Source of the DNA: Persephonella hydrogeniphila
GTDB taxonomy: Bacteria; Aquificota; Aquificia; Aquificales; Hydrogenothermaceae
Assembly: GCF_900215515.1 (NCBI RefSeq)
Contig: NZ_OBEI01000006.1
Coordinates: 1 to 64,000 of the forward strand
Reading direction: 5' to 3'
DNA length: 64,000 nt
The notes under the pieces were generated by a model. The model was not told where the DNA came from. It made no database searches and saw only the letters and a program-made list of their open reading frames with translations. Below are positions 32,621 to 50,014 of this stretch, one piece after another; within the stretch, counting starts at the first letter, position 1; each line of letters starts with the position of its first letter. The position numbers and the translations under genes are program-made.

Positions 32621-32733
32621 CTTTTAAAACCTCAGAACATGTTATTTTCTTAAATGTTATTAAAAACCAGATAGATTTGCTAATTTGAAATATTTATATA
32701 TGTATTGAAAATATAAAAGAGTATAAATAGTGA

Positions 32734-32753
32734 AGGGGGGATTAAATCCCCCT
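32734..32753 (-). terminator. Hairpin after the SCP2-like gene
   Basis: AGGGGGG-ATTAAAT-CCCCCT just beyond the stop codon of the minus-strand SCP2-like gene. Few Ts follow, so termination may be partial. Confidence 0.55.
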
Positions 32754-32758
32754 ATGTT

Positions 32759-33253
32759 TTAAGGACATTCCATTGTATGAGGAACTTTATCTAAGTTAAG
32801 GAGAAATGCTTTGAACGGTCCCATATTTTGCATAGCTTCCCATTTTGAACCTTCAAATGTCATTTTTGACATAATTCCCATCATTCCCATAAATCCAAAC
32901 TCTCCCTTTGCCAGAGACTTCCAGTTCTCATCTGTTGCAAACATAAGAAAATCTGGTTTCTGGTCTGTAGCTTTTCCTCCGTAAATACAGATTGCCTTTC
33001 CATCTTTGGGAGCTATGTGAACTTCTATAGCCTTTTCCGGTCCTCCACAGTCCTGTCTGTAAAATCTTATAATTCTATAACCTTTATTTCCCGTTTTTTT
33101 AGACCATTTAGAAAGACCTTCCGTCAGTGTTGGGGTTTTATTCCACAGTTCACAGAACTGTTTTGCGTACTCTTCATCCATAAACTTAGGTGCTGCGAAT
33201 GAATATCCAAAACCTAAAATTATGGCAATTAAAACTGCCCCTACTCTTTTCAT
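32759..33253 (-). CDS. Secreted SCP2-like protein
   Basis: 164 residues: a signal peptide of about 20 residues, then a domain whose second half (FLMFATDENWKSLAKGEFGF and the following SKMTFEGSKWEAMQ) resembles the SCP2 sterol/lipid-binding fold. Secreted SCP2-like proteins are uncommon. Its place one hairpin downstream of a FadL-type porin suggests a periplasmic carrier for a fatty acid or other hydrophobic compound. Two to four Cys residues could form a disulfide. The SCP2 call is by pattern only. Confidence 0.6.
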   Translation of the reverse strand: MKRVGAVLIAIILGFGYSFAAPKFMDEEYAKQFCELWNKTPTLTEGLSKWSKKTGNKGYRIIRFYRQDCGGPEKAIEVHIAPKDGKAICIYGGKATDQKPDFLMFATDENWKSLAKGEFGFMGMMGIMSKMTFEGSKWEAMQNMGPFKAFLLNLDKVPHTMECP

Positions 33254-33280
33254 AACTTCCTCCAGTTAAAATATTGTGGA

Positions 33281-33297
33281 AGGGGCTAAAAGCCCCT
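33281..33297 (-). terminator. Intercistronic hairpin after the FadL-type porin
   Basis: AGGGGCT-AAA-AGCCCCT, immediately after the porin stop and before the SCP2-like gene. No T-tract follows, so some read-through is likely. Confidence 0.55.
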
Positions 33298-33302
33298 GTT
33301 TA

Positions 33303-34601
33303 TTAGAAATTCCAGTCAAGAGATACACCTATAGAGTCCTGTGCATTTTTAGCTCCTGCTAAGAGTGCCCCACCATTTGCTGTAGATTCTACCTTTTTCT
33401 CAAACGCATGGACATAAGATGCATTAAGTGTGAAATGCTCTGTAAACTGGTATCCAAAACCGAAAGTTATGTGATGTTCTGCAATAGCAGGAAAACCTAT
33501 AAGATTAAACCACTCTATTTCATAATCACTAAATCTTGCACTAAAATCAGGTACAGTATTTGTACGATTTACAGCATCTAAATTATTTTTCTCTCTAATA
33601 GGAGACTTACCATAATTATATCCAGCTCTGAGAGCGAGTCTTGGGGTTACTTTATATTCGCCACCTACTGCAAACACCCATTGATCTTTCCATTTGAATT
33701 GTTTATATCCATCCGCATCTGACCAGTTTATCCATCTAATATCAAACCCTACCTTTAGTTCCGGTATAGGTCTAATACCTACTCCTACAGAGGCTTCTTG
33801 AGGTTGCTCGAGTTTTAAGTCTTCTAATTCCTGAGTCATAGGATTAGAAATGAACACATTTTTATATTTCATCTTTATACTACTCTGATAATAAGCACCA
33901 AGGCAGATATTATCTGTAGGCTTGAAGTTTATACCTAAAGATGCTCCTAATCCGTAAGATTGCGATTGACCACCAGCTGCATTCCATGTAGTTCCTGGAA
34001 CACCATCACCATCTGCATCATATGCCATAACAGCACCTAAATCTAAAGAACCCCAAGCAAGATGGAGAGCACCACCAATAGCAAGCCTATCATTTACTTT
34101 GTAACCTACAGCTGGAACAATTCTCATAAACTGGAATGTTGTATGCATTTTGTTAAGTCCATTTTTGTCTCTATAATCAACACCCATACCAGATACACCA
34201 TAAGCACCTATACCGATAACCAGATTATCGTTAATCTGGTTTGTAATTGCTATTTCCGGAATTAGGAAGGTATCAGCATCTGAAGTTTGATAGCCTGAGT
34301 CTACAGGAACAGCACCTGTAGTGTTGTCTGAATCATTTGTATCCCAGTAGCCTTTAGATCTTCCCTTTACATGAGGCATAAATAAAATCCCACCGAAACT
34401 CACATTGAATCCTTTTTGTCTTCCAAGCCATCCAGGGTTTCTAAAAATTGAGTCTGTTGGCTCCAGACATATACCAGTTCCAAGTCCACCCATTGCTCTG
34501 GACGCTGGAGAAACACCTATCAGGTTATCTCCATTTGTAGCAAAAGCTCCAGTTGCTAAAACAGCTGAAGCCAATACCACCGAACCTGCCACCTTTCTCA
34601 T
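33303..34601 (-). CDS. FadL/TodX-family outer-membrane transporter
   Basis: 432 residues with a signal peptide (cleaved after about 21) and the FadL N-terminal hatch sequence TNGDNLIGVSPASRAMGG. The rest is a 14-strand barrel pattern with a C-terminal Trp-Asn-Phe. FadL proteins move long-chain fatty acids or other hydrophobic molecules across the outer membrane by lateral diffusion; homologues carry aromatics. The substrate is unknown here. AGGAGG precedes the ATG. It shares a transcript with the SCP2-like gene. Confidence 0.9.
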   Translation of the reverse strand: MRKVAGSVVLASAVLATGAFATNGDNLIGVSPASRAMGGLGTGICLEPTDSIFRNPGWLGRQKGFNVSFGGILFMPHVKGRSKGYWDTNDSDNTTGAVPVDSGYQTSDADTFLIPEIAITNQINDNLVIGIGAYGVSGMGVDYRDKNGLNKMHTTFQFMRIVPAVGYKVNDRLAIGGALHLAWGSLDLGAVMAYDADGDGVPGTTWNAAGGQSQSYGLGASLGINFKPTDNICLGAYYQSSIKMKYKNVFISNPMTQELEDLKLEQPQEASVGVGIRPIPELKVGFDIRWINWSDADGYKQFKWKDQWVFAVGGEYKVTPRLALRAGYNYGKSPIREKNNLDAVNRTNTVPDFSARFSDYEIEWFNLIGFPAIAEHHITFGFGYQFTEHFTLNASYVHAFEKKVESTANGGALLAGAKNAQDSIGVSLDWNF

Positions 34602-34694: not shown

Positions 34695-35780
34695 TTATTC
34701 TCCTATTTTCAATAGATCCCTTATCTCATCTTCAAGTTCTCTACACCTGGGGCATAGAGTTGTATCTCCTTTGTAAGAAAAAGGAACAAGACATTCTTCA
34801 CAGGGGATTATTACATGTTCTGCTAATACTTCTGTTTCATTAAGAAATGTATTTACATTAAGAGTATCTTTTAGATGAAGACAGTCCTCAGGACATACAT
34901 CATGACATACTTTACATTTGATACACAGTTTTGGTTCAAAAAGTATTTTTAATCTTTCTGCTCCAGCCTTTAGAGCACCTGTTGGACAGACGTTGTAGCA
35001 TACAGAGCAGTTTGTACATTTTGTGTTATCTATCCATTTATCAGATGTAAAGGAAATTTTATCTACTTCAAGTTTTACATCTGAGTAATCTGTATTTTGA
35101 TTTTTTAATGCCTCTATCAGTATTTTCCTTTTTGGAATCCCTACTTTTTCCTCAACGATATTCTTTGGCTGTTCTTTTACCTCTTCAAAAGAAGAAACTC
35201 TGGGCATTAAAGCCCAGAAAGTTATTCCTGCTGCCGCCTTCCCGAAGTTTTTTAAGAAAGCTCTTCTTTCTTTTTCTTTTTTTTCTTCTCTTTCTAAGGA
35301 TAGTTCTCTTATGACGGCTCTGTTTTCTACCCCTAATTTTTCAAGTATATAATTTGCTTCCTCTACTTTTTTATTAATTTCCTCTAATAAATCTCCAACA
35401 AAACATTTACTACAGTGTCCGGTATCAAATATAAGGTCTTCTTTCTTCTCTAAAATAATAGCCACTATATACTCAACATTTAGAACTGTAAGACACGGAA
35501 GATTTATCTTACAGCTCAGCACATTTTCTTTTTGAGAAAGAAAATCTCTGTAAAATCTTTCCAGTTCAAATCCATCCAAGGAAAAGGCTTCAGAAGGACA
35601 TGCTCCGACACATGCTCCGCATGAAACACATTTTTCAGCATTAAGTATTATTTTATAATCATCCTGTGATAATACATCCTCAATTGGACATATATTTATA
35701 CACTCCCTACAACTTGAATCTTTGTAGTATACATGAACACAATCATTTATATTAAATCTAACTCTACTTCTATTATTCAT
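34695..35780 (-). CDS. Multi-cluster 4Fe-4S ferredoxin-like protein
   Basis: 361 residues with four ferredoxin-type cluster motifs: SCRECINICP and CVSCGACVGACP at the N terminus, CTNCSVCYNVCP and CIKCKVCHDVCP in the second half. A C-terminal CEEC plus CPRC pair resembles a zinc ribbon. Between the halves, RRAFLKNFGKAAAG with a hydrophobic run mimics a twin-arginine signal but lies near residue 190, so it may be an internal anchor or fold relic. It is the last gene of the operon. It could pass electrons to, or help assemble, the upstream molybdoenzymes, as NapF-type proteins do. Confidence 0.82.
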   Translation of the reverse strand: MNNRSRVRFNINDCVHVYYKDSSCRECINICPIEDVLSQDDYKIILNAEKCVSCGACVGACPSEAFSLDGFELERFYRDFLSQKENVLSCKINLPCLTVLNVEYIVAIILEKKEDLIFDTGHCSKCFVGDLLEEINKKVEEANYILEKLGVENRAVIRELSLEREEKKEKERRAFLKNFGKAAAGITFWALMPRVSSFEEVKEQPKNIVEEKVGIPKRKILIEALKNQNTDYSDVKLEVDKISFTSDKWIDNTKCTNCSVCYNVCPTGALKAGAERLKILFEPKLCIKCKVCHDVCPEDCLHLKDTLNVNTFLNETEVLAEHVIIPCEECLVPFSYKGDTTLCPRCRELEDEIRDLLKIGE

Positions 35781-35802: not shown

Positions 35803-36441
35803 TTAAACTGTTGCTCCTTCCTCGAGTGTTTCTATTAAGTATTCGTAATCAGAAAGTATAAACTCAAGGGCAAGCTCACAAACATCCTGATAAAAAGGTG
35901 TTTCTGCCATATCTTTTGCTGCCATAAGATAAATGGGACCCCAATTTGCAAGATGTTCTTCAAGAAACTTTTTTTGTATCTGTCTGAGATTTCTTACTTT
36001 TTCTTCATTGTCTTTTTCCATAGCTTCTAATTCTTCCTGTGCCAGCGTCATCATAAATTCCATTTCTATCGCTATATGATCTGGGGAAAGTGCTCTTGTT
36101 TTATTCAGATCGATCATATAACCGTGTTCTCTGTAGAATACCAGTGTAGGATTAGTAACAGTTGGGTCTATATGCCCTTCGTCGTTCATAAAAACAGATT
36201 CATAAGGGTAAACATTTAGAAGGAAAACCGTTGTAAAATCAACATTAAGCTCTTCTTCTATCAGCTTTTTAGGTTCTTTTTCAAAGAAAGTTTTCCATTC
36301 TTTTGTTCTGGGGAGCAGTTCAAGGAGATCCGGATTGGATCTTATCTTTTTGAGTGTATCCTCGTCAATCTCTTCAATTAAAAATCTTGATAGGAGACCG
36401 TACATATTAATTCTTGCTTGTGTTTCCTGTTTTCTGTCCAT
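35803..36441 (-). CDS. TorD/DmsD-family molybdoenzyme chaperone
   Basis: 212 residues, all-helical, with the family's YPYESVFMNDEGHIDPT segment and the later LSPDHIAIEMEFM motif. These cytoplasmic chaperones bind twin-arginine signal peptides of molybdoenzymes and hold them until cofactor insertion. It directly follows the PsrA-like gene. It is the only such chaperone in the operon and may serve both catalytic subunits, each of which has a twin-arginine leader. GAGGT lies upstream of the ATG. Confidence 0.88.
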   Translation of the reverse strand: MDRKQETQARINMYGLLSRFLIEEIDEDTLKKIRSNPDLLELLPRTKEWKTFFEKEPKKLIEEELNVDFTTVFLLNVYPYESVFMNDEGHIDPTVTNPTLVFYREHGYMIDLNKTRALSPDHIAIEMEFMMTLAQEELEAMEKDNEEKVRNLRQIQKKFLEEHLANWGPIYLMAAKDMAETPFYQDVCELALEFILSDYEYLIETLEEGATV

Positions 36442-36459: not shown

Positions 36460-36479
36460 AGGGGGCGAAAAAACCCCCT
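36460..36479 (-). terminator. Hairpin with T-tract between PsrA-like and TorD genes
   Basis: On the minus strand AGGGGG-TTTTTTCG-CCCCCT is followed by TTATTTT. It could act as a partial terminator, lowering expression of the chaperone and ferredoxin relative to the enzyme. Confidence 0.6.
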
Positions 36480-36484
36480 ATTTA

Positions 36485-39400
36485 TTATTCTTCATGAGAG
36501 GAACCCGGCATTCTATATGCTTTATCTGTATGTGGATACCAGGGTCTTTTCATCCATTTTGGTCTTCTGAGCCCGTTTGGTCCAGGTGCAGGTCTTGTAA
36601 GTTTATCTCTCCATGCTTGATAAACTTTAAATGTTGCTTCAGTATTAACAACTACATCTCCTATTCTGTCTTCTGGTCCCGCTTTTTCTACAAGTACTTT
36701 TTTGTGCCAACAGTGCATTCCTGAAAGTGGGTCTGGATTTGCAGGAAATACTGCATTCTGCCATACACCTGTTGCACCATTCCACCATACCTCTTTTATA
36801 TCTTTGTTAAATTCAGGATAAGGCCATTTTAACCACTTTTCATTATGCTCTCTTTCTATTTCTCTTGCCAGTACACCTTGTTTCCATCTGACAGTCCATA
36901 TATGTTTCTCGGGATTATTAATCTCAGCAAGAGCGGAACCAAAAGTCATTATTCCAAGTTCCTGATCAAATCCGTCTACTTTGACAGCATTCTTAACTCT
37001 CCATCTACCAGAGTGGTGAGAACATGCGAGAACTCCCGGTCTTGTTGCCTGAGTAGGCATTGCCATTCCTACAAAATAACCAACCTCAATACCTGAAACT
37101 GTATCTACGACTCTTACCTTTATAGGATCTCCCTTTTTAATACCAAGTTTTTTGGCATCTCCTTCATATATCCATACAGGATTATGGTTTTGAGATATTT
37201 CCATCAACCATTTAGCATTAACAGATCTTGTGTGAATATTATAAGGAAGCCTGTATATAGGATTGAGTACAAATGCATTAGGCTCAGTCATATAATCGTG
37301 GTGAACATGTGTAACAACATGAACCAGTTTTTGTCTTTCTTCCCTATTTTTTGGATAATATGGGATCGCATACTCTGGCCATTTAAATTCTACAAATGTT
37401 TTTGAATAAAACTCAAGTAATCCTGTTGGTGTATGGAATCCTTTCAAGAATTTTCCACCTTTTTTGACAGCAATAGTATGTCTTTCTGAATGTAGTTTAT
37501 CCGCATTATGATGCTTAAGATAAACAGCTCCTGTATCCTCATCTATCTCACATTCAGATAAAGGTATCCATTTTCCTTTTACTTTTATAGCATTCTTAGA
37601 AGGATCATAAGGAATTTCCCTCTCATGTACATTGTAGACGTCTGTTTCTTCTGTCCATGCACCTCTGTCTCTCATATATTCATAAGGAGTAACCCCAAGC
37701 TTCTCGCACACTTTTTTTAGATTCGGGAGTGTTCCAAAAGCGGCATCATACCATTCTTCAATTGTTACTGGTTTTCCGGGATTTTTCTTAGATTCATAAA
37801 GCTGTCTTATTCCCAGATCTCCATCGGGATCAATTGCCCAAGCAAGATTTATCCAAAATTCATTCTCTTCCCATACTTCTCCAAGACCTACTTTTTTATG
37901 AGCCTCCAGTGTTGCTCTCCACGGAACCTTTGGTTTCCATCCCATTTTTTGAAGAGCGACTCTTAAGACAGGCTGTCTGAAGGCTGTCCATCTTTCGGGT
38001 TTTGTTTCTGCAGACTGGTTGTCGTGTCTTTCACCTGCAAGACCAACAGGAAGTATATAATCAACAAACCAGTTGGTTTCTGACCATGTAGGAGACAGAT
38101 TAACAGTTAAGCCCATCTTATTCTCATCTTTTAACACCTCGATCCATCTGAAACCATCAGGATTTATCCATACCGGGTTGTATATTTTAGATATCCATAC
38201 ATCAAGTTTTTCAGGTATTTTTAAACCTCTTTCAGCCCATTTCTTTCTCCATTCATCATCAGAAAGCAGGTGTGGTAAAAGGAACGAAAGTTCATACGTA
38301 GACAACGGCCATTCCGGAGGCCAGAGAAGTTCATTCCATGCATCTACAGGATCTGGTTTTTCTTTAAGAGTTGCTTTTCCTCCTTTTCCTCCTACACCCA
38401 AAACATGCCAATGGTGCCATCCGTTTGCACCTATACCTCCTATAGAACCTGTAACGATGAGCAGGAAGTATCCTGTTCTTCCGGCAGATAACCATCCACC
38501 TCTGTTCCCTGCTGCTTGAGCTCTCCAGAAGTATGTAGTAATTCTATCTCCTGCCCATACTATGTATTCATAAAGTTTCTCAAGTCTATCTACCGGAACT
38601 TTAGTTTCCTGTGATGCCCACTCAAATGTGTAATCTTTGTATAGATCTTTTAGAACCTCTATAAAATCATCAAATGTTTCTCCTTCAGGCAGTTTCGATA
38701 TTCTTCCTTCTTTCAGAAGATAATTCAGGTAGTCTTTGTCTTTTAGAAAGACTTTCCAGTTTACCCAGTTTTCCATAAACTTCCTGTTATATTTGTCTTC
38801 TTGTAATAGCCTACTTATCATCGATAAGTATATAGCAGCCTCGGTTCCCGGCCATACAGGAATCCATAAATCTGCCATACCAGCTGAATTAGAAAGTCTT
38901 GGATCCATTACAACCAATCTTGCACCTTTAGCTCTTGCATCTGCTATGTATCCAGCATGTTGCTGGAAGTAGTGACCTGCATCTGCAGCATGTGAAGAAG
39001 ATAGAAATATAAGTCTTGCATTTGCAAAATCAGGAGAAGGTCTGTCATCTCCACTCCAAGCTATACCACCTAATCTTCCACCTGCAGAACATATATTTGT
39101 ATGGGAGTTGTGGTAATCACCGCCCCAAGACCACACAACTCTTGCTGTAAATCCTCCGGATTCGTTTGGTCTTCCAACGTGGTACATTAGCATTTTCTGA
39201 GCAAGTTCATCTCCCTCTTTTTTAGCTTTTTTTATAGTTTCTCTCATTCTTTTACCGATAGTTTCGAGGGCTTCATCCCATGTAGTTCTGACCCATTTTC
39301 CTTCACCTCTTTTTGATCCGGGAGCTCTTTTTAGAGGGAAAGGAATTCTATCTGGATCGTAAGTTTGAGCAAGTGAAGCATATCCTTTAGCACAGTTTCT

Positions 39401-39775
39401 TCCCCTCGATCCTGAATGGAATGGATTTCCCATAAATTTCTTGATTACAAGATTGTCTTTATCAACCCAAGCTGTAAGTCCACATGCTGCTTCACAGTTA
39501 TTACATACAGTTGGAACAATCATATAATTAATGAGTTTTACACCATCCCTTAAAGCTCCACCGTATTTTTTCCAATAATCACCGTCAGGTTCTTTCCAGT
39601 CATTCCACTTTTCAAAAGGTGGGTAGTAATCAAGTCTTGATGGAGTAAATGTTATATCTGTATGATCCTCTGCGATTGCAGAGGGATTCATTTTTTCTAC
39701 TACGCCTTTAGCAATTGCTGCCCCACCTATTGCTGCAGCAACCCCTTTTAAAAAGCTTCTTCTTGTAGTCTTCAT
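36485..39775 (-). CDS. Molybdopterin oxidoreductase catalytic subunit, PsrA/PhsA/TtrA-like
   Basis: 1096 residues, long for the family. The twin-arginine leader TRRSFLKG is at residues 4-11. The 4Fe-4S site uses Cys91, Cys94, Cys98 and the later Cys-Ala-Lys-Gly. The probable Mo/W ligand is Cys229 in TNICSAGG, as in polysulfide, thiosulfate and arsenate-type enzymes. The C-terminal part holds the bis-MGD-binding domain. It is translocated with the 4Fe-4S subunit and anchored by the NrfD-like subunit. A sulfur compound is the likely substrate given rhodanese and YeeE neighbours, but sulfite, tetrathionate, polysulfide and arsenic oxyanions cannot be separated by eye. Confidence 0.88.
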   Translation of the reverse strand: MKTTRRSFLKGVAAAIGGAAIAKGVVEKMNPSAIAEDHTDITFTPSRLDYYPPFEKWNDWKEPDGDYWKKYGGALRDGVKLINYMIVPTVCNNCEAACGLTAWVDKDNLVIKKFMGNPFHSGSRGRNCAKGYASLAQTYDPDRIPFPLKRAPGSKRGEGKWVRTTWDEALETIGKRMRETIKKAKKEGDELAQKMLMYHVGRPNESGGFTARVVWSWGGDYHNSHTNICSAGGRLGGIAWSGDDRPSPDFANARLIFLSSSHAADAGHYFQQHAGYIADARAKGARLVVMDPRLSNSAGMADLWIPVWPGTEAAIYLSMISRLLQEDKYNRKFMENWVNWKVFLKDKDYLNYLLKEGRISKLPEGETFDDFIEVLKDLYKDYTFEWASQETKVPVDRLEKLYEYIVWAGDRITTYFWRAQAAGNRGGWLSAGRTGYFLLIVTGSIGGIGANGWHHWHVLGVGGKGGKATLKEKPDPVDAWNELLWPPEWPLSTYELSFLLPHLLSDDEWRKKWAERGLKIPEKLDVWISKIYNPVWINPDGFRWIEVLKDENKMGLTVNLSPTWSETNWFVDYILPVGLAGERHDNQSAETKPERWTAFRQPVLRVALQKMGWKPKVPWRATLEAHKKVGLGEVWEENEFWINLAWAIDPDGDLGIRQLYESKKNPGKPVTIEEWYDAAFGTLPNLKKVCEKLGVTPYEYMRDRGAWTEETDVYNVHEREIPYDPSKNAIKVKGKWIPLSECEIDEDTGAVYLKHHNADKLHSERHTIAVKKGGKFLKGFHTPTGLLEFYSKTFVEFKWPEYAIPYYPKNREERQKLVHVVTHVHHDYMTEPNAFVLNPIYRLPYNIHTRSVNAKWLMEISQNHNPVWIYEGDAKKLGIKKGDPIKVRVVDTVSGIEVGYFVGMAMPTQATRPGVLACSHHSGRWRVKNAVKVDGFDQELGIMTFGSALAEINNPEKHIWTVRWKQGVLAREIEREHNEKWLKWPYPEFNKDIKEVWWNGATGVWQNAVFPANPDPLSGMHCWHKKVLVEKAGPEDRIGDVVVNTEATFKVYQAWRDKLTRPAPGPNGLRRPKWMKRPWYPHTDKAYRMPGSSHEE

Positions 39776-39792: not shown

Positions 39793-40677
39793 TTAACTTA
39801 ATGGTAAGCTCTGTGGAGCTATCAACCATGCATGTTTTATTAGCCATAAGCCTATTAACGCAAAGACAGATGCAAGCCATGCATATCTGTATTTTCTGTA
39901 TTCATTTGCAATACCAACCAGAACCATTGGAATTATGAATGTAAATATCATTCCAAGCCAGAAAAATGGAGCAACTTCTCCAAAAGCGAGGATTTTTATC
40001 ACCTCATAAGAAAACTCACTGTGCATTTTTGCAAAGAAAAGCTCTCCTATAAACATTGCTGCTGCAAGACCTGCACTACCAAAGAGAATATACCCAAGTT
40101 CTCTCCTAATCTCCTCTTTTAGTACATGTCCATAAATAGCATCTACTATAAGATACGCTGCAGAGCCAGCTATCATAGCACTTAGAAGCATTGATATCAT
40201 CTCTGCAGGGAATACCCATACCTCCCTTGCTGTTGCTTCTCCCATAATTCCGGCTGTATATATAGTTGCAAAGAAAGCAAGGATAAATCCCGGAATCATC
40301 ACTTTATCAAATAGTTTTTTGTTTCCTGTTGCCCACGACCAGAACGATATTAAAAGCACAATAACAAAGGCTGAAACAACCCACGCTCCCAGCGTTACTG
40401 CAGATGTGAAGTGAGGGTGGAAGAATATCTTCCAGAATCTGAACATATGGTGAAGATCTAAAACTGTAACAAGAAGTGTTATACCAATGAATATTATTCC
40501 TAAAAATGGAAGCCATTTTCTAAAAAAGTTATCCTGCTCTGGGTATCTCTTTATAAAATAAAGCCCCAGAAGGAAAGTTCCTGTAGCTATACTTTTTGCC
40601 CACATATTTGTTGATACAAGCCATCCCCAAACAACTTTAGGGAGAGCTACGTCAAAGGTAACTTCTGCCCCTATCAT
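39793..40677 (-). CDS. NrfD/PsrC-like membrane quinone subunit
   Basis: 294 residues with eight or nine helices. The DLHHMFRFWKIFF and HPHFTSAVTLGAW segments match the NrfD/PsrC family, in which an Asp/His near the periplasmic face shapes the quinone site. There is no heme. It anchors the PsrA/PsrB-like subunits and exchanges electrons with the quinone pool. It starts one base after the ferredoxin subunit ends. The order B-C-A is less common than A-B-C. Confidence 0.92.
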   Translation of the reverse strand: MIGAEVTFDVALPKVVWGWLVSTNMWAKSIATGTFLLGLYFIKRYPEQDNFFRKWLPFLGIIFIGITLLVTVLDLHHMFRFWKIFFHPHFTSAVTLGAWVVSAFVIVLLISFWSWATGNKKLFDKVMIPGFILAFFATIYTAGIMGEATAREVWVFPAEMISMLLSAMIAGSAAYLIVDAIYGHVLKEEIRRELGYILFGSAGLAAAMFIGELFFAKMHSEFSYEVIKILAFGEVAPFFWLGMIFTFIIPMVLVGIANEYRKYRYAWLASVFALIGLWLIKHAWLIAPQSLPLS

Positions 40678-40678
40678 C

Positions 40679-41314
40679 TTAATGCCCTCCTATATGGTCT
40701 AAAAACTTAACTTCTGTAAACAGGGTAAATCCTTCAGGTCTTTCTGAAGCAAGTGGATCAAGAGCAACTGTAGAGCCTCTTACATAGAAATGTTTTGGAT
40801 GTGTGTTCAGTTCAGGTTTTCTCACCATTACGTCTCTGTGCTCTTTAAGATATTTGGATATTTCTGATTCCGGATCATCAAGATCTCCAAATATGTTTGC
40901 ATGGGTAGGACATGCAACGACACATGCTGGCATCATTCCAACTTCAATTCTGTGAGCGCAGTAAGTACACTTGTCTGCAGAGTTAGTGATCGGATCAAGA
41001 TAAATAGCGTTGTACGGACATGCCATCATACAGGAAGCACAGCCTATACATCTGTCGTGGTCTACATTTACTATACCATTCGGCAGATAATGAAGTGCCG
41101 AAACAGGGCAGATTCTCTCACAGGGCGCATTCTCACAATGGTTACATCTTAACGGTACAAAATGTCTTTTTACATCGGGGAATTCACCCTGATCGATATA
41201 CTTTACCCTGAGCCTCCAACTGTGAAGAGGAACATTATTTTCTGCTTTGCAGGCGACAGCGCAGGCCATACATCCCATACATCTGCTCAGGTCTACCAGA
41301 AATCCTAATTTCAT
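40679..41314 (-). CDS. Four-cluster 4Fe-4S electron-transfer subunit, PsrB-like
   Basis: 211 residues with four ferredoxin motifs: CMGCMACAVACK, CNHCENAPCERICP, CIGCASCMMACP and CTYCAHRIEVGMMPACVVACP. This is the standard layout of the B subunit in PsrABC/TtrABC-type complexes. It has no signal of its own and should cross the membrane with the twin-arginine-bearing catalytic partner. GGAGG precedes the ATG. The hairpin 28 bases upstream separates it from the secreted Gly-Cys-Leu protein gene. Confidence 0.93.
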   Translation of the reverse strand: MKLGFLVDLSRCMGCMACAVACKAENNVPLHSWRLRVKYIDQGEFPDVKRHFVPLRCNHCENAPCERICPVSALHYLPNGIVNVDHDRCIGCASCMMACPYNAIYLDPITNSADKCTYCAHRIEVGMMPACVVACPTHANIFGDLDDPESEISKYLKEHRDVMVRKPELNTHPKHFYVRGSTVALDPLASERPEGFTLFTEVKFLDHIGGH

Positions 41315-41341
41315 GGGATACCCTCCTAAAAATATTTACCG

Positions 41342-41359
41342 GAGGGGCTTCTGCCCCTC
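41342..41359 (-). terminator. Intercistronic hairpin within the sulfur operon
   Basis: GAGGGGC-TTCT-GCCCCTC lies between the secreted Gly-Cys-Leu protein gene and the PsrB-like gene. No clean T-tract follows directly, so differential stability or partial termination is suggested. Confidence 0.55.
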
Positions 41360-41369
41360 TTTATTTTTC

Positions 41370-41846
41370 TTATAGACAACCTTTAAAGAATCCTGGTTTT
41401 GGTTTTGGAGTGATTTCAAACTCTTCTAATTTAACTACAGAAATTCCGTCTTTTTCTCCTACAATAACGCCTGAACCATCTATTGATCCACCGAAACCTT
41501 CTAACAGGTCTGACCAGTAGACACTGTCCTTAGTAGGTTTTATGTAGTAGTACTCGCCTTCTGTAACATCAAATACAACAATCTTTGGTGGATTGTCATA
41601 AATATCCTGTATTCCTTCAAATGCTTTATGGGGAGGACATGAAGCAAGAACTTCAAACTCTCCACTCTCTTCAGCTTCTTTTGCACAGGAAATTGCCGTA
41701 ATAACAGCACTTGTAAATTCAACTTCATTATCTTCCTCTTCGTCTGCCACTTCTTCTTCTGCATAAGCCGGCTGGATTACGTTATTTACTGTCACCCCGA
41801 GTATAAAAGAAAGACTTAAAATAGATGCAAATATATGCTTAAGCAT
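41370..41846 (-). CDS. Secreted protein of unknown family ending Phe-Lys-Gly-Cys-Leu
   Basis: 158 residues: a signal peptide of about 29 (ending PAYA), a very acidic stretch, then an alpha/beta domain with Cys in ITAISCAKEA and VLASCPPHK, and a Pro/Lys-rich linker ending in Gly-Cys-Leu. The Cys one residue from the C terminus on a flexible linker parallels the rhodanese-like protein of the same operon. I recognise no family. It occupies the place where related type II enzymes have their chaperone gene, but it is exported and is not a TorD protein. An upstream in-frame GTG (41855) overlaps the ribosome site, so ATG 41846 is used. Confidence 0.75.
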   Translation of the reverse strand: MLKHIFASILSLSFILGVTVNNVIQPAYAEEEVADEEEDNEVEFTSAVITAISCAKEAEESGEFEVLASCPPHKAFEGIQDIYDNPPKIVVFDVTEGEYYYIKPTKDSVYWSDLLEGFGGSIDGSGVIVGEKDGISVVKLEEFEITPKPKPGFFKGCL

Positions 41847-41860
41847 AGTTATCACCCCCG

Positions 41861-43076: not shown

Positions 43077-43105
43077 AAGAAGAGAGTCTTAATGACCCTC
43101 TTCTT
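43077..43105 (-). terminator. Hairpin spanning the beta-subunit stop codon
   Basis: Minus-strand AAGAAGAGGGTC-ATTAA-GACTCTCTTCTT gives a 12-base-pair stem with one G-U pair, enclosing the stop codon of the beta-subunit gene. It is likely a processing or stability element between beta and gamma. Confidence 0.45.
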
Positions 43106-44243
43106 CCTTTTTCATAGCAGGCTGAGTTTCAAAAAACTTAACGCCGTAAACACCTTCAACCTTTGGAGTATTTGCTCCTTGAACGTATCTTTCATCTATT
43201 ATTTTGAAGAACTCAGTTCCTTTCAGACCTTTTTCTGCAGCTATTTTCTGGTAGTAATTCTCATCAAGTCTGAACATATCAGCATGGCTGTATGCAATCA
43301 GTATATCCATAAGCTCAGATTCTTCTCCTCTCTTTCTTTTTTCCATCTCCGATAGAAGTGTCTCTGCAGCTTTATGAACTTCCGGTCCAAACAGCTTTTC
43401 AAGGTATTCCATAGGGATTCTTCCACCTTCCAGTGGTTTTCCTTCTTCATCAAATTTTGGAGGGGATAAGACAGGTGGAACATAGTAAACATTAGGCTGT
43501 GTACCGAAATCAGGTCTGAGAGGTAATGCGACTTTGTATTTATGAACAAGTTTGTATACCTGTGAGTCTTCATCATCAAGGAAACCGACAAATCTTATTC
43601 TACCTACACACTGGTGGGCACATGCCGGGGGAAGTCCTCTTTCTATTCTTGGGAAACAGAATATACATTTCTCTGATTTTGATATTTTCGGGTTGAAATA
43701 TATCTTTTTGTAAGGGCATCCTGCTATACAGTATCTGTATCCCTGACATCTATCGAGATCTACCAGAACAATACCATCTTGCTCTCTTTTGAATATTGCC
43801 TCTCTGGGACAGGCAGCAAGACATCCAGGATTTGAACAGTGATTACATATTCTTGGGAGGTAAAAGAAATAAGAGTTAGGGAAATCTCCTTCTCCTACAT
43901 CTTCATCCCAGTTAGGACCCCATACAGGGTCTGTGTTTGGTTTAAGCACTGTTTCTTCTGCGTTTCCAAAAAGCTCATCATGGTTATAATCCCACGGAAC
44001 TCCGTAATCATGAACCATATCCGGTATTATTCCATCTTTTAGGTTCCCATCTGCATCAAAACCACCACCTGCCTCCATCCAGTTCCTTGGATAACCTGCT
44101 CCCGGCTGTGTTTCAACATTATTCCAGTACATATACTCTCTGCCGTTTCTGTTTGTCCACTGGGTCTTACATGCTACTGTACATGTCTGGCAACCTATAC
44201 ATTTATTTAAATCCATTACCATTGCTAATTGTCTTTTAGCCAT
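43089..44243 (-). CDS. Iron-sulfur beta subunit of type II DMSO-reductase-family enzyme
   Basis: 384 residues, NarH/EbdB/DdhB-like. Three complete 4Fe-4S motifs (CIGCQTCTVACK, CNHCSNPGCLAACP, CIFCFPRIERGLPPACAHQC) and one altered site CQGYRYCIAGCP starting at Cys166. The Tyr at the missing Cys position predicts a 3Fe-4S cluster, the norm in type II enzymes, where nitrate reductase has Trp. It transfers electrons between the catalytic subunit and the heme b/c gamma subunit. It begins 14 bases after the alpha gene, with AAGGAGGT. Confidence 0.93.
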   Translation of the reverse strand: MAKRQLAMVMDLNKCIGCQTCTVACKTQWTNRNGREYMYWNNVETQPGAGYPRNWMEAGGGFDADGNLKDGIIPDMVHDYGVPWDYNHDELFGNAEETVLKPNTDPVWGPNWDEDVGEGDFPNSYFFYLPRICNHCSNPGCLAACPREAIFKREQDGIVLVDLDRCQGYRYCIAGCPYKKIYFNPKISKSEKCIFCFPRIERGLPPACAHQCVGRIRFVGFLDDEDSQVYKLVHKYKVALPLRPDFGTQPNVYYVPPVLSPPKFDEEGKPLEGGRIPMEYLEKLFGPEVHKAAETLLSEMEKRKRGEESELMDILIAYSHADMFRLDENYYQKIAAEKGLKGTEFFKIIDERYVQGANTPKVEGVYGVKFFETQPAMKKEEEGH

Positions 44244-44257
44244 TATGAATTACCTCC

Positions 44258-47176
44258 TTATGCTTTCTCAATATCAACAGATGTTGTATAAGCATGCTGG
44301 TTACCATCCCAGTTTCCACCAAACTTCAGATGTCCCCAACCATCTGAGAGTTCCAGCAGGTTCAGTGGCGATGCAACGACTGTGTTATGGGATTTATTTC
44401 CTTTAAAGAAGAAAGGTTCCCATCCGTGTTCAATTATAATTGCATCTTTAGGACATGATGGGTAAACCTTTGCCATCGCATAAAACTCACCTAAATCATT
44501 GAAGATCTTTATCTCATCTCCATCTTTTATGCCTTTTTTCTCTGCTATCTCAGGGTTTATCATCACGTAAGGGACACCCCTCTGGAGTCTCTGGAGAAGA
44601 GTTGATGTTTTATATGTTGAGTGTATTGACCATCTTGCGTGGGGAGACATTAGAACAAATGGGTATCTCTTAGGTCTTATAGGTTCTTTAGCTGTCGGAA
44701 GTGCTGCTCCGTATTCAATCCACATATCATGATCTACATAGTAGGTGAGCCTTCCTGAAAGCGTTTCAAACCTTTCAAATAGATAAAGATTGTTCTCAAA
44801 GGAGTTGTAAGGCTTATCTGGATACAGAGGAGATGTCTTTCCTGCCTTCTCATTAAGCTGGAGAAAACCTCCCCTTTTTCTTACAGTTTCAATAGTATTT
44901 GGCTTGAACTGATCAACATTTTCCAGTGCAAATTCGACAGCATCTTTGTCTGTTCTTACATGTCCGTGGTGGGTGTACTCATCTACAAGTTTATCAAGTT
45001 CTCTGTATCCTGTTTTTGAGTGGGTTGGATCTGGTATCTTGATATATTTTTCGTCTCCAGTTTCTTTGTATTTCTTTGTAGCAAGTTCCTGTATTTTTTC
45101 AACAATCATTGTACAGATTTCCCAGTCTGATTTTGATTCTCCTACCGGTTTAAGATTTTGAGGTGGCTGAGCCATATTTGCGTATCTGTGATATCCAGGA
45201 TTTGTTCTTAAATCCCATACTTCGTACATTGATTTTGCAGGCAGAACGATATCAGCATACTGGGCAGTAGAGTTCATCCTGAAGTCTACATAGGCGAAGA
45301 ATTTGGCTTTTTTAAGGAATGCTTCCTTGTAAGTATCTCCTTTATTTCTTCTGAACCTCGAATCAGCAAATATAAGGAATGTTTCTACAGTATCCCAGTA
45401 AGGTTTTCCATCTTTTTTACCTATTGCATCCTTCCACTTTTCGTCGTTTCCATAGTTATTTAAGATCTCTTTTACTTTTTTCAGATACTCCTCTTTAGAA
45501 AGACCTGTTGCCCTTCTTACATCTTCGTCAGAGTATAGTTTTTCCACATCTTTAAGCATATTTCCAAGAACAAACTCACTTGCAAAACCAGAAGCGAATC
45601 TCTGTTTGTATTTTCCTGAGAATCCAGAAAGTTTACCCATACCTGATATAGCCCACTCGCTCTCTGTATTGAACCCACCATAAGGACCGAGTCTTCCTAC
45701 AAGACCAGAAATAGAAGCTATAGCTCTTTGGGCAAGCATACCGTTGAAGTACTTACCTATTGTAAAGCCCATTGAGATCATAACGACTTTCGGAAGGGCT
45801 ATATCCTTAGCAAGCTGCTCAACTATCTTAGGATGGACGCCTGTCAGCTTCCATGTTTTTTCAGCTGAGAATTTTTTAGCTTCTTCTTTCAGAAGCGAGA
45901 AAACTGTTGTTACCGGTACTTTTGAACCGTCTTTCAGTGTCACTTCCCATTTTCCTTCAAGGGCAGGGTCTATATCCCATCCTACATCTTTCAGTCTAAG
46001 TGTTTTAACGGGAGAACCCTCACATCCAGGCATCACAGTTAGTTTGTTTGTTTTCAAGTTCCATGAGAAGAATACCTCGTGTGGATGATACTCTCCTCCT
46101 TCTTCTTCTCCATGCTCTTTGAATACTTTGAAAGTTTCTTCATCAAACTCTGCCGGAGGATTTTCAAAATCTATATCTGAAAGTCTCAGCAGTTTCTTGT
46201 TATCAAGCCTTACAAGGAATGGAAGATCTGTAAAATGTTTAACAAATTTTGGTTTGTACAACTTTTTCTCTAATATCTCATTTATTATTGACATGGCAAG
46301 GAAACCATCATATCCAGCCTTAACAGGAACCCACAGATCTGCATGGACACAGGTAGAGTTAAATTCTGGTGTTATTACTATCTGCTTAGAACCGTTGTAC
46401 TTACCTTCCCATAGAAAGTGGGCATCAGGTATTCTTGTTTTATTTGGATCCTGTCCCCACCATATATTTACGTCGGTTGTGTAAAAGAAATCATAGGAAC
46501 AACCTATATTTCCTTCACCGTAAACTACAGATACCCCAGGGAACATATCTCCAACATATGAAGCTATGTAAGGTCTGACAGCACCAAGAAGAGTTCCTAA
46601 TCTTTTTCCGGCTGCTCCTCTAATCTCTGTGAGCATTCCAGCCCCAACATGTATATAAAGACCTTCTGGTCCTTTCTCTAACATCGTCTTATAAATATTT
46701 TCAGCAATTTCTGTTATCGCTTCGTCCCAGCTAATTCTTTTCCATTTACCTTCTCCTCTTTTTCCTACTCTCTTTAGAGGATAAAGTATTCTGTCTTTTT
46801 CATACGTAACCTGAGAGTGTTGAACACCTTTGTTACATCCCCTTGGATTGAAATCCGGTATCTTGGGATTTATTGGAGTATAGTTTGCAACCTGATTTTC
46901 TCTGGTGATTATTCCGTTGTTTACCCATACATCCCATGCACAGTTACCCTGACAGTTAACACAGTGGTAAGCTGTTCCATGATCTTCTTTGTTTCCATAA
47001 GTAAAGGCAAACTCTTTTCTGTACATATTTTCTGTATAGCTGGAATTCGGATAAGAACTTCTCGGATCTTCAACAACAAGAGCTTTGTCTTTGGCAAAAG
47101 CGGCATTTCCGCCTAACGCTACACCGGCTCCTGAAGCTGATAAAGCTTTCAGGAAATCCCTTCTTGTAAGTGCCAT
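44258..47176 (-). CDS. Type II DMSO-reductase-family molybdoenzyme, catalytic alpha subunit
   Basis: 972 residues from ATG 47176, chosen because it has AAGGAGGT 7 bases upstream and begins the twin-arginine leader LTRRDFLKA; an upstream ATG at 47215 lacks both. The FS0 cluster is His-Cys3 type: His71, Cys75, Cys79 (HCVNCQGNC) and GCNKG. The Mo ligand is expected to be Asp210 in GDMFPG, aligned with nitrate reductase YCDLPP and followed by TRIPDAHF. These features place it with selenate, chlorate, dimethylsulfide and ethylbenzene enzymes and periplasmic NarG. The rhodanese and YeeE context favours a sulfur substrate, which is inference. Confidence 0.92.
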   Translation of the reverse strand: MALTRRDFLKALSASGAGVALGGNAAFAKDKALVVEDPRSSYPNSSYTENMYRKEFAFTYGNKEDHGTAYHCVNCQGNCAWDVWVNNGIITRENQVANYTPINPKIPDFNPRGCNKGVQHSQVTYEKDRILYPLKRVGKRGEGKWKRISWDEAITEIAENIYKTMLEKGPEGLYIHVGAGMLTEIRGAAGKRLGTLLGAVRPYIASYVGDMFPGVSVVYGEGNIGCSYDFFYTTDVNIWWGQDPNKTRIPDAHFLWEGKYNGSKQIVITPEFNSTCVHADLWVPVKAGYDGFLAMSIINEILEKKLYKPKFVKHFTDLPFLVRLDNKKLLRLSDIDFENPPAEFDEETFKVFKEHGEEEGGEYHPHEVFFSWNLKTNKLTVMPGCEGSPVKTLRLKDVGWDIDPALEGKWEVTLKDGSKVPVTTVFSLLKEEAKKFSAEKTWKLTGVHPKIVEQLAKDIALPKVVMISMGFTIGKYFNGMLAQRAIASISGLVGRLGPYGGFNTESEWAISGMGKLSGFSGKYKQRFASGFASEFVLGNMLKDVEKLYSDEDVRRATGLSKEEYLKKVKEILNNYGNDEKWKDAIGKKDGKPYWDTVETFLIFADSRFRRNKGDTYKEAFLKKAKFFAYVDFRMNSTAQYADIVLPAKSMYEVWDLRTNPGYHRYANMAQPPQNLKPVGESKSDWEICTMIVEKIQELATKKYKETGDEKYIKIPDPTHSKTGYRELDKLVDEYTHHGHVRTDKDAVEFALENVDQFKPNTIETVRKRGGFLQLNEKAGKTSPLYPDKPYNSFENNLYLFERFETLSGRLTYYVDHDMWIEYGAALPTAKEPIRPKRYPFVLMSPHARWSIHSTYKTSTLLQRLQRGVPYVMINPEIAEKKGIKDGDEIKIFNDLGEFYAMAKVYPSCPKDAIIIEHGWEPFFFKGNKSHNTVVASPLNLLELSDGWGHLKFGGNWDGNQHAYTTSVDIEKA

Positions 47177-47205: not shown

Positions 47206-47706
47206 TTATAAACAACCACCGCCACCACCGGCTGCAGGTGGTGTGTACTCACCCTCATCCTCAGGATAGCCCTCATCATCCCATGCAACCATTCCACCTT
47301 TCAGGTTCTGAGCAAAAGGAAACTTCTCTGCACATTTTTTGAATATCTCTGGATCTCCATCTTTTGAGACAATTACAGTTGGAAGATATGGATTTATTTG
47401 TGGGAGAGCTTCTTCAGGTGTTTTAGATTCATCACAGTCAGGGAATGGAATCGCTCCCGGTATATGCACCCCAGTGTAGTAGTCTGTCTCTTCAGCCTCG
47501 TCTTCTTCCTCTTCTGGAACTTCGTATGGTCTGACGTCAATAATCTGGATGTTTATTTTTGGATTTCCTAACTTTTTGTAAAGCTCTTCAACTGTTATTG
47601 GAATCTGCTTTCTCAGTTCAATATCCTTTTTACCAAAACTCAGAAGCAGTCCTGAAAGAACTACTATAATTCCAATATAAATAATCCTTTCAATCTTAGG
47701 ATTCAT
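47206..47706 (-). CDS. Membrane-anchored rhodanese-like protein with Gly5-Cys-Leu tail
   Basis: 166 residues from ATG 47706. One N-terminal membrane helix (about 7-25) leaves a rhodanese-like domain outside the membrane (IQIIDVRPYEVP, GVHIPGAIPFPD, NLKGGMVAWDDEGYP). The active-site loop, normally starting with Cys, reads IVSKDGDPE, so sulfur transfer by the usual mechanism is lost. Cys occurs at FPDCDES, at IFKKCAEK and at the extreme end, PAAGGGGGCL. A Gly-rich arm with a terminal Cys recalls the SoxY Gly-Gly-Cys-Gly-Gly carrier arm. ATG overlaps the upstream stop (TGATG). Confidence 0.85.
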   Translation of the reverse strand: MNPKIERIIYIGIIVVLSGLLLSFGKKDIELRKQIPITVEELYKKLGNPKINIQIIDVRPYEVPEEEEDEAEETDYYTGVHIPGAIPFPDCDESKTPEEALPQINPYLPTVIVSKDGDPEIFKKCAEKFPFAQNLKGGMVAWDDEGYPEDEGEYTPPAAGGGGGCL

Positions 47707-47849
47707 CACTCTTCGCCTCCTTCAGAAGAAGCTTGAACTGTTTGATGAAGCTGCTGTTCCAACTTTGATATATCAGCTTTCATTCCAATAATCCCAACAA
47801 TGAGTACTAAAATTGCTGTCCAGAATAAAATTCTTTCAACCATACTCAT
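47706..47849 (-). CDS. 47-residue single-helix membrane protein
   Basis: A small frame between the YeeE-type gene and the rhodanese-like gene. It starts ATG 47849 with GAGAGG about 10 bases upstream and ends TGA sharing its A with the next ATG, so it is translationally coupled. It has an N-terminal hydrophobic helix (residues 5-22, with Trp10) and an amphipathic Gln/Glu-rich tail (KLEQQLHQTVQA). It is probably a small subunit or scaffold of the membrane-side complex. No family is recognised. Placement, coupling and composition make it a real gene rather than chance. Confidence 0.7.
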   Translation of the reverse strand: MSMVERILFWTAILVLIVGIIGMKADISKLEQQLHQTVQASSEGGEE

Positions 47850-47868: not shown

Positions 47869-48999
47869 TTAGTCATAAACTTCGTCTGATTCTTTTTTGG
47901 CCTGAAGGAATTTACTCCATCTACCAAAGTAAATGAGGTTTGCAGTCAGAACACCTACCACAAAATAAGTTGCAGACTGTGCCATAGAACCTACAGAAAG
48001 AGTTGGGTATGCAGATATAAATGCACCTGTTGTACATCCTCCACCTATCATAGCTCCAAGTGCGAGGAATATACCTGCAAAGAATACAAGAATTAATCTT
48101 ACCCATGGGAATGGAGTTACACTTTTTGCAAATGCTGGTGGAACAGGGTCAAATTTAAAAGTTCCAGATAATATAGCACTTAGAAATGCTCCTGGTAGAA
48201 CACCTATTATAAGACCAGCGTGCCATATTATTGACTCACTAATTTTTGGCACTACAGAGAGTGGGTGTCCCAGTAGATCAGCCATCCATGCAACAAATGC
48301 AAGTGCACCCCCTGAAAATCCAAGGTACTCTCCCTGTGCTGTAGCCCAGGCAATTATTAAACCTGCTAATATACCTGATATAGCCCAGTGCCACTCCCCT
48401 CTTAAAGCCTGTATAAAGTTACCTGCAGGCTGGTCATAACCGAGCTTTTTAGCAGGGTCTAACCAGTCTGCAAGTAATGCAAAGATCACAAACAGGATAC
48501 CCCACACCACTGCAAGAGGTCCGTATGGAAGACCTAAAACACCGTAAAGTGTGATTTTTTCTCTTGTTCCAAGTATTCCTACATCTACCAGCCATGGCTG
48601 GATATTTGCATATATAACAATTCCGAGGATAAGACCAACAACACCAGCCATAGATATAAACTTACCAGCTCCAACTCTAGCAACACATGTTCCTGGACAG
48701 AAACCGGCAGATGCCATGGCAATTCCAAAAAGAAAACCACCTACAAGATGAGCTATTCCCAGATATGGCATTATCCTTGGGAGGAGATTTGTTTCCTCAG
48801 CTACACCAAATATATCAGCAAGCCCGTAAATGATAGAAGTTGTAGCTATAGCCATAAACGCAAATTTCATGATTTTTAGATCTCTGAGAAGAAGCATTCC
48901 TTCTACTCTTGAGTATCTTATAGCTCCCACTTTGTGGAGAACTATCCCGAACAGACCTCCTGTTATCAGCCCCATTATAAGATGACTCAAATGCTCCAT
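47869..48999 (-). CDS. YeeE/YedE-family sulfur-compound transporter
   Basis: 376 residues with about nine or ten helices. The two pore motifs with conserved cysteines are present, AMASAGFCPGTCVARVGAG and MIGGGCTTGAF. In the characterised thiosulfate importer TsuA of this family, such Cys residues relay thiosulfate by transient hydrogen bonding. Uptake of thiosulfate or transfer of sulfur atoms across the membrane is expected. It follows the secreted rhodanese gene after a 46-base gap with a hairpin. GGAGG precedes the ATG. Confidence 0.9.
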   Translation of the reverse strand: MEHLSHLIMGLITGGLFGIVLHKVGAIRYSRVEGMLLLRDLKIMKFAFMAIATTSIIYGLADIFGVAEETNLLPRIMPYLGIAHLVGGFLFGIAMASAGFCPGTCVARVGAGKFISMAGVVGLILGIVIYANIQPWLVDVGILGTREKITLYGVLGLPYGPLAVVWGILFVIFALLADWLDPAKKLGYDQPAGNFIQALRGEWHWAISGILAGLIIAWATAQGEYLGFSGGALAFVAWMADLLGHPLSVVPKISESIIWHAGLIIGVLPGAFLSAILSGTFKFDPVPPAFAKSVTPFPWVRLILVFFAGIFLALGAMIGGGCTTGAFISAYPTLSVGSMAQSATYFVVGVLTANLIYFGRWSKFLQAKKESDEVYD

Positions 49000-49021
49000 A
49001 GCTTACCTCCTTGTAATTAGG

Positions 49022-49039
49022 AGGGGCTAAAAAGCCCCT
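49022..49039 (-). terminator. Intercistronic hairpin after the rhodanese gene
   Basis: AGGGGCT-AAAA-AGCCCCT directly beyond the rhodanese stop. The sequence after it on the minus strand is CCTAATTAC, without Ts. It is likely a stability element or leaky terminator. Confidence 0.55.
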
Positions 49040-49045
49040 TAAACT

Positions 49046-50014
49046 TTATTTTTCAATAGGAACGTTAGGATCATTACCCCATTCGTCCCAAGAACCTACA
49101 TAAACTTTAACTTTTTTGTGGCCTAACAGTTTTAAAGCAGCGAAAACGAAAGAACCTCTTCCAAGTCCAACGTGGCAGTAAGTAATAACAGTTTTATCTG
49201 GAGTTAAACCTTTCTTTTTGAGCTTTTTGTATACTTTTTTCAGTTTTTTCAGTTTTTTGAAGAGAGGTTTATTTGGCTTACCAGATGGATTGCCTGCAAA
49301 CTTTTTCCATTCTGCAAAAACAGCTCCCGGAATATGACCACCTCTTTTAACGGTTATATGCTTTCCTGGTTTTTCAAGAGCATCAAGAAGTGTTTTACCG
49401 GTGTACTCTTGAAATCTTCTTGCATCAAGAATAAAGTAGTGTTCTTTGTCCTTTATTGCCTTCAGAACTTCTTCCTTTGTAGCAATGATTTCTTTTCTGA
49501 TCTTTGGAACGAATTTTTTAGGAGGAGGTTTTTTTGCAGGACCCGATTCTACCGGGTATCCTTTGGCTTCCCATGTCACAAGCCCACCGTCCATCATCTG
49601 AACATTATCAAGTCCGTAAAGATAAAGGAAAAACCATACACCGGAAGCGTTAGGACCTCTTCCATCATCGTAAGCTATAGCATGTGTATTGTTATCAATA
49701 CCTAACTCTTCTCCGATAAACTTTGCAGCTCTTTCAGGACACATTGGAAGTCCGCATTTTCTGATATCCTCAAGGTAATGTAGATCATGGGCAAATGCGT
49801 TGACAGAACCGGGGATATGTTTTTCTTTGAACTTTTTTGGAGAATCTCCATCAACGAATCTTACGTTCGGTTTTCCCAACAGATCATGGGCTGCATCAAC
49901 AGAAATGATGAATTTTTTTGCAAATTCTTCGCCCGAAGGAACATCAGCATAAGAAACAGCTGAGAAAGCTGCAACTCCTGCGAGAGCTACCATTGCTTTT
50001 CTTAATTTCTTCAT
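49046..50014 (-). CDS. Periplasmic tandem-domain rhodanese (thiosulfate sulfurtransferase)
   Basis: 322 residues with a signal peptide (about 23, ending SYA). The first rhodanese domain is structural, with AYDDGRGPNASG in place of an active loop. The second has the loop YCHVGLGRG with Cys280, which should carry a persulfide. A Lys-rich insertion (KKLKKLKKVYKKLKKK) lies before the active strand. It could move sulfane sulfur from thiosulfate to carrier thiols in the periplasm. It is the first gene of the 13-gene operon and follows an FNR-like box. AGGAGG precedes the ATG. Confidence 0.92.
   Translation of the reverse strand: MKKLRKAMVALAGVAAFSAVSYADVPSGEEFAKKFIISVDAAHDLLGKPNVRFVDGDSPKKFKEKHIPGSVNAFAHDLHYLEDIRKCGLPMCPERAAKFIGEELGIDNNTHAIAYDDGRGPNASGVWFFLYLYGLDNVQMMDGGLVTWEAKGYPVESGPAKKPPPKKFVPKIRKEIIATKEEVLKAIKDKEHYFILDARRFQEYTGKTLLDALEKPGKHITVKRGGHIPGAVFAEWKKFAGNPSGKPNKPLFKKLKKLKKVYKKLKKKGLTPDKTVITYCHVGLGRGSFVFAALKLLGHKKVKVYVGSWDEWGNDPNVPIEK

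Follow-up and report, generated by a model that had tools for sequence, protein, structure and literature searches.

Two penultimate-cysteine C-terminal arms encoded in a molybdoenzyme operon of Persephonella hydrogeniphila: candidate periplasmic sulfur carriers

A cysteine on a flexible C-terminal arm is already known as a type of device. The periplasmic SoxY carries intermediates on a single arm Cys at its Gly-rich C-terminus, and is thought to offer them for oxidation to SoxCD, a Mo enzyme (PMC5336275). LbpA shows a similar pattern, with a Gly-flanked Cys near the C-terminus (PMC6067878). Persulfuration of DsrC occurs only at the penultimate Cys (PMC3397948). In an ergothioneine synthase of the DMSO reductase (DMSOR) family, sulfur cannot be delivered to the metallopterin site without Cys1135, which lies in a module ending at residue 1136 (PMC9516567). 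For the channel SoxT1, it was considered conceivable that sulfur moves from the Cys of SoxY along three Cys of the channel, and its cluster also includes a 56-aa Cys-less single-TM protein (PMC11582611).

Here we describe two proteins, arm 1 and arm 2, which both end in -GCL and are encoded in one operon. The window, i.e., the whole stretch analysed, comprises 64,000 nucleotides of contig NZ_OBEI01000006.1. A description of this cluster was not found in the searched literature, most subscription journals being outside its scope. Nor did that literature show these scaffolds, two such arms as a pair, or their association with a type II DMSOR cluster.

Genes of the operon

The genes are given below in operon order on the (-) strand.

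49046..50014 (-): tandem rhodanese, periplasmic; active-site Cys (YCHVGLGR) retained in the C-terminal domain; proposed sulfur loader
47869..48999 (-): membrane transporter of the YeeE/YedE family (Sulf_transp); three Cys conserved
47706..47849 (-): 47-aa single-TM protein, Cys-less, conserved; its stop overlaps the arm 1 start
47206..47706 (-): arm protein 1; a membrane helix at the N-terminus, an inactive (Cys to Ser) rhodanese domain, and GGGGGCL as invariant C-terminus
47206..47229 (-): codons of the GGGGGCL arm and stop; synonymous changes only across 28 orthologues
44258..47176 (-): alpha subunit of a type II DMSO-reductase-family molybdoenzyme, with a Tat signal and conserved Mo-ligand Asp210
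43089..44243 (-): Fe-S beta subunit, scoring above the cut-off of TIGR03478
41861..43051 (-): gamma subunit, in which a heme b domain of the ethylbenzene-dehydrogenase type is joined to cytochrome c
41370..41855 (-): arm protein 2; composed of a signal peptide, an acidic linker, and a small domain of no known family, with PKPxGFFKGCL as invariant C-terminus
40679..41314 (-): Fe-S subunit of a second molybdoenzyme complex
39793..40677 (-): NrfD/PsrC-type membrane subunit
36485..39775 (-): second molybdoenzyme catalytic subunit, Tat-exported; best PDB match thiosulfate/polysulfide reductase 2vpw
35803..36441 (-): TorD/DmsD-like molybdoenzyme chaperone
34695..35780 (-): poly-[4Fe-4S] ferredoxin, also present after the chaperone in five other genomes

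Intergenic gaps are mostly below 60 bases, and the genes of the 47-aa protein and arm 1 overlap by one base. The N-terminal sequences of the tandem rhodanese and arm 2 read as signal peptides. YeeE scored 113 bits with PF04143, and its C101, C105, and C322 were invariant; against the TsuA equivalog model it reached 64 bits, below the cut-off of 400. As in the YeeE-type SoxT import modules, a YeeE-family channel is accompanied by sulfur-handling proteins and a small TM protein without Cys. The 47-aa protein, whose translation is coupled to that of arm 1, is similar in outline to the 56-aa TM protein by soxT1A in Hyphomicrobium. In contrast to the SoxT modules, the channel here has a molybdoenzyme and the arm protein with the dead rhodanese domain as neighbours, and lies apart from the sox genes.

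The type II molybdoenzyme shares with its family (ethylbenzene, dimethyl sulfide, and perchlorate enzymes) the alpha-beta-gamma composition, the Mo-Asp ligand, and a heme b gamma subunit. Asp210 of alpha aligned with the Mo-ligand Asp of both PcrA and EbdA (perchlorate reductase and ethylbenzene dehydrogenase, respectively) and was invariant in 20 orthologues. A role of the arm Cys as a missing Mo ligand was ruled out, because alpha retains this Asp. The beta subunit passed its type II model (548 bits, cut-off 481), whereas gamma (116 bits, cut-off 170) did not; alpha was likewise below the cut-off of the curated TIGR03479 (841 bits, cut-off 985). Further differences from the family are the fusion of gamma to cytochrome c and the co-encoded rhodaneses, YeeE, and two arm proteins. 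Judged from its domains, the heme b-cytochrome c fusion would fit an electron output to cytochrome c, although electrons may also flow the other way.

The order of the first 12 genes was kept at every long readable locus of other genera, with two exceptions. In G035 (L098, 16400-16490) arm 1 has been lost in a single deletion, together with the last part of the small TM gene and ~120 residues from the start of alpha; the cluster is otherwise intact, and the deletion is either decay or an assembly error. In G012 (L189, G012:C8, 2-892) a divergent alpha, 56% identical and partial at the contig end, adjoins a RusA-like gene, and rhodanese, YeeE, and arm 1 are all absent. This alpha has Ser at the expected position of the Mo-ligand Asp (VGSFPNG vs VGDMFPG). 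In G018 (L101, 13318-15601) the YeeE gene is tandemly duplicated.

G+C-rich hairpins of the AGGGGC...GCCCCT type recur in the operon gaps at 49021-49040, 41341-41360, and 36460-36479, and could set unequal subunit levels. Downstream, 31598-34601 (-) encodes a PF03349 transporter of the outer membrane (FadL/OmpP1), an orphan of 164 aa that probably carries a signal peptide, and a YeiH-type membrane protein (PF03601). The FadL gene follows the cluster in one other genus as well.

Conservation of the two C-termini

Arm 1 has 166 aa, and the translation of 47706-47206 (-) ends in AAGGGGGCL. Residues 38-144 matched Pfam Rhodanese (PF00581) with 34.8 bits (cut-off 22.2). In the catalytic loop, IVSKDG, Ser occupies the position of the CxxG Cys, and the same Ser was found in 28 of 28 orthologues, so arm 1 does not qualify as an active rhodanese. 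The AlphaFold2 model, built with 28 orthologues, showed a helix at residues 3-34 and a rhodanese fold with a mean pLDDT of 86. The tail (161-166) had pLDDT values below 50 and is predicted to be disordered. A Foldseek search with this model returned the rhodaneses 3nhv, 2kl3, and 1urh with E values of about 1e-5. The sequence-only reading had described arm 1 as a membrane-tethered, rhodanese-like domain with a dead Ser-Lys-Asp-Gly loop and an end of five Gly, Cys, and Leu, next to a molybdoenzyme. Loop, end, domain, and neighbour (alpha, at 44258..47176) agree with our results, and the tether holds as a predicted helix. Arm 1 probably faces the periplasm.

The same reading had proposed an alignment of orthologues for invariance of the terminal Cys and Gly run. 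The orthologues, 28 distinct sequences, covered 9 genera of Hydrogenothermaceae and were 54-94% identical in the region matched by tblastn. GGGGGCL was present in 28 of 28, so the refuting outcome named in that reading, orthologues lacking the terminal Cys, did not occur; the second tail, described below, was equally constant. Both tails were sampled within one bacterial family, so divergence is limited. At the DNA level the five Gly codons were drawn from GGT, GGC, GGA, and GGG, Cys was TGT or TGC, and Leu was TTA, CTA, or CTG, with zero replacements. The two residues directly before the tail vary freely (A/S/K/Q and A/M/I). As the tail residues are fixed while their codons vary and their neighbours change, selection acts on the protein sequence. 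C91 and C125 were likewise invariant; from the sequence, these two could form a structural disulfide, leaving C165, the penultimate residue before Leu, as the sole free thiol.

Arm 2, which the earlier reading did not cover, has 161 aa with a signal peptide and the C-terminus ...ITPKPKPGFFKGCL. Its tail, predicted to be disordered, was PKPxGFFKGCL after a Lys in all 27 distinct orthologues (x = P or A). Only synonymous codon changes were seen in the tail among these 27, and outside it identity fell to 42%. Like arm 1, arm 2 has one arm Cys and two further invariant Cys. None of the 27 members matched Pfam, NCBIfam gave no match, and the PDB gave none by sequence or by fold; with all of these searches empty, membership in a known family was ruled out.

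G-C-[L/F]-stop was searched as a pattern in the whole genome, and the open frame behind each match was checked. Only two ORFs of more than 60 codons had such an end, arm 1 and arm 2, and G-G-C-L-stop occurred once in the 2.0 Mb genome. Assuming ~2,000 genes, we estimate a chance of about half a percent that two genes picked at random would share one 12-gene cluster. The two proteins are unrelated in sequence and yet identical in their last three residues, which suggests a common function or partner.

Within Aquificota, alpha, arm 1, and arm 2 are confined to Hydrogenothermaceae, a family of hot-vent bacteria, and co-occur there; apart from G035 and G012, gaps were mostly in fragmented assemblies. 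Among 136 Aquificota genomes no arm relatives were found outside this family; none were found in plasmids, and none of arm 2 in viral contigs. A scan of genome contigs, reaching close relatives only, returned records that were all labelled Persephonella, Hydrogenothermaceae, or Aquificota. Two near-complete members of the family (G021 and G022) lack the cluster and also lack SoxY.

Relation to described carriers

Neither arm protein matched a SoxY profile (TIGR04488 or PF13501), and the SoxY of this genome is a separate gene elsewhere. SoxY differs in its fold, Tat signal, SoxZ partner, and GGCGG end (IGGCG in this genome), in place of which the two tails show GGGGGCL and GFFKGCL. The earlier comparison of arm 1 with SoxY stands as regards a Gly-rich Cys arm. 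The penultimate Cys of arm 1 is geometrically nearer to DsrC/TusE than to GGCGG. DsrC/TusE and the ergothioneine synthase, with its C-terminal relay Cys, are closer precedents than SoxY.

As in DsrC/TusE, the Cys on the flexible arm was penultimate in 28 of 28 arm 1 and 27 of 27 arm 2 orthologues. DsrC ends in ...PKPTGCV, which the PKPxGFFKGCL end of arm 2 resembles. Unlike the arm proteins, DsrC is cytoplasmic and has another fold, and neither protein matched the DsrC family in Pfam or NCBIfam. Because the features that define the two families were looked for and not found, the arm proteins belong to neither SoxY nor DsrC.

The metallopterin-dependent ergothioneine synthase of Caldithrix abyssi likewise uses a near-terminal Cys, which brings sulfur to a DMSOR-family metallopterin site. 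That enzyme is one cytoplasmic fusion with a cysteine desulfurase and forms a C-S bond, whereas the arms here are separate and apparently periplasmic proteins.

Proposed role and alternatives

On the evidence of sequence, we regard the arm as strongly conserved and real, and sulfur chemistry is what we propose for it. In our estimate there is about an even chance (roughly 50%) that both arm proteins are periplasmic swinging-arm sulfur carriers with the penultimate Cys as attachment site. Arm 1 would be anchored in the membrane through a single helix and arm 2 would be secreted, both with disordered C-terminal arms. The active tandem rhodanese of the operon would put sulfane sulfur on the arm Cys (Cys-S-S-). 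The loaded arm, rich in Gly or in PKP, would then extend into a partner, for which the type II molybdoenzyme is the likeliest candidate. This enzyme would oxidise the arm-bound sulfur, and electrons would travel by way of Fe-S clusters and heme b to the cytochrome c fused to gamma. The product would be taken by the second arm, or this arm would provide a link to the NrfD-type complex.

By their annotation the neighbours (a periplasmic sulfurtransferase, a YeeE sulfur transporter, and a Mo enzyme with a cytochrome c gamma subunit) fit a sulfur-carrier role, and the sulfur-carrier interpretation of the earlier reading is partly supported. From this setting we infer that sulfur is the cargo, which enzyme loads it, that the direction is oxidative, and in what order the steps of the arm cycle follow. 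The scores of alpha and gamma below the curated type II cut-offs bear on the substrate assignment, and count against the proposed role. A general carrier role is likelier than any particular partner. The arms would presumably serve the molybdoenzyme, the YeeE channel, or both, and the channel is an equally near candidate partner.

The genome encodes SoxX, a thioredoxin-like protein, SoxY, SoxZ, SoxA, and SoxB, with the Sox models above cut-off. SoxC was not found, the only PF00174 protein of the genome having ~200 aa. As SoxXYZAB is present and a SoxC-sized PF00174 protein is not, there is room for another sulfane dehydrogenase. A PF00174 protein of ~420 aa (SoxC/SorA size) is present in genera g2 and g5-g8 of the family, and therefore replacement of SoxCD cannot be the whole story. 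One genome (G005) has the cluster and no SoxY, so the cluster does not require Sox. As a marker of a putative cytoplasmic sHdr pathway, which could act as acceptor of imported sulfur, PF02754 showed only HdrB-type CCG domains in the genome. That the arms form a second, Sox-independent periplasmic system, carrying sulfur on -GCL into the type II enzyme for oxidation to cytochrome c, is a tentative proposal, clearly less probable than the carrier role as such.

Delivery to YeeE is the main rival. Here the membrane-tethered arm 1 would pass sulfane sulfur to the channel and along its three Cys into the cytoplasm, and the molybdoenzymes would act on another compound or on sulfite. An equivalent route has been suggested for SoxY and SoxT. 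The genes of YeeE, the 47-aa TM protein, and arm 1 lie side by side, the last two overlapping, and the three Cys of YeeE are invariant. SoxT1 offers a parallel for both the three channel Cys, along which such a passage was considered conceivable, and the Cys-less single-TM protein, the latter having 56 aa (PMC11582611). Import would, however, leave arm 2 unexplained, as this protein is encoded after the gamma gene of the molybdoenzyme and has no membrane anchor. We consider this import relay unlikely.

Less likely is a redox function, in which the penultimate Cys would perform thiol-disulfide exchange with each other, with the SoxY arm, or with the rhodanese, and would carry electrons in place of sulfur, like a reductant of the SoxS/DsbA type. 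The presence of exactly one arm Cys in each of two co-encoded proteins with matching -GCL ends would agree with such exchange, and the two further invariant Cys of each protein could form a structural disulfide. However, neither protein shows a CxxC motif or a thioredoxin fold, and the scaffold of arm 1 is a rhodanese, which is a sulfur-transfer fold; we consider a redox role improbable.

Least probable is that -GCL is a recognition peptide which pins both proteins to the molybdoenzyme complex or aids maturation of the Mo site: the same last three residues on two unrelated operon proteins could be a common docking signal, but with GGGGG and PKPxGFFK upstream a common pocket would read only three residues, cofactor maturation would be cytoplasmic given the Tat signal of alpha and the TorD-like chaperone of the operon, and with the Mo-ligand Asp in place no external Cys ligand is needed.

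The cluster combines two candidate carrier arms with a transporter and a molybdoenzyme, and offers named Cys and peptides as targets. If the sulfur-carrier reading is true, a swinging-Cys arm of the SoxY/DsrC type would have evolved again, on a rhodanese that had lost its active site, and sulfur carriage would have shifted from the rhodanese catalytic loop to the tail. If the second, Sox-independent oxidative system exists as tentatively proposed, it would amount to SoxYZ-SoxCD invented a second time by convergence, on other protein and Mo-enzyme families. The finding bears on how sulfur oxidisers with Sox and without SoxCD, a gene set present in the genome described here, handle sulfane sulfur.
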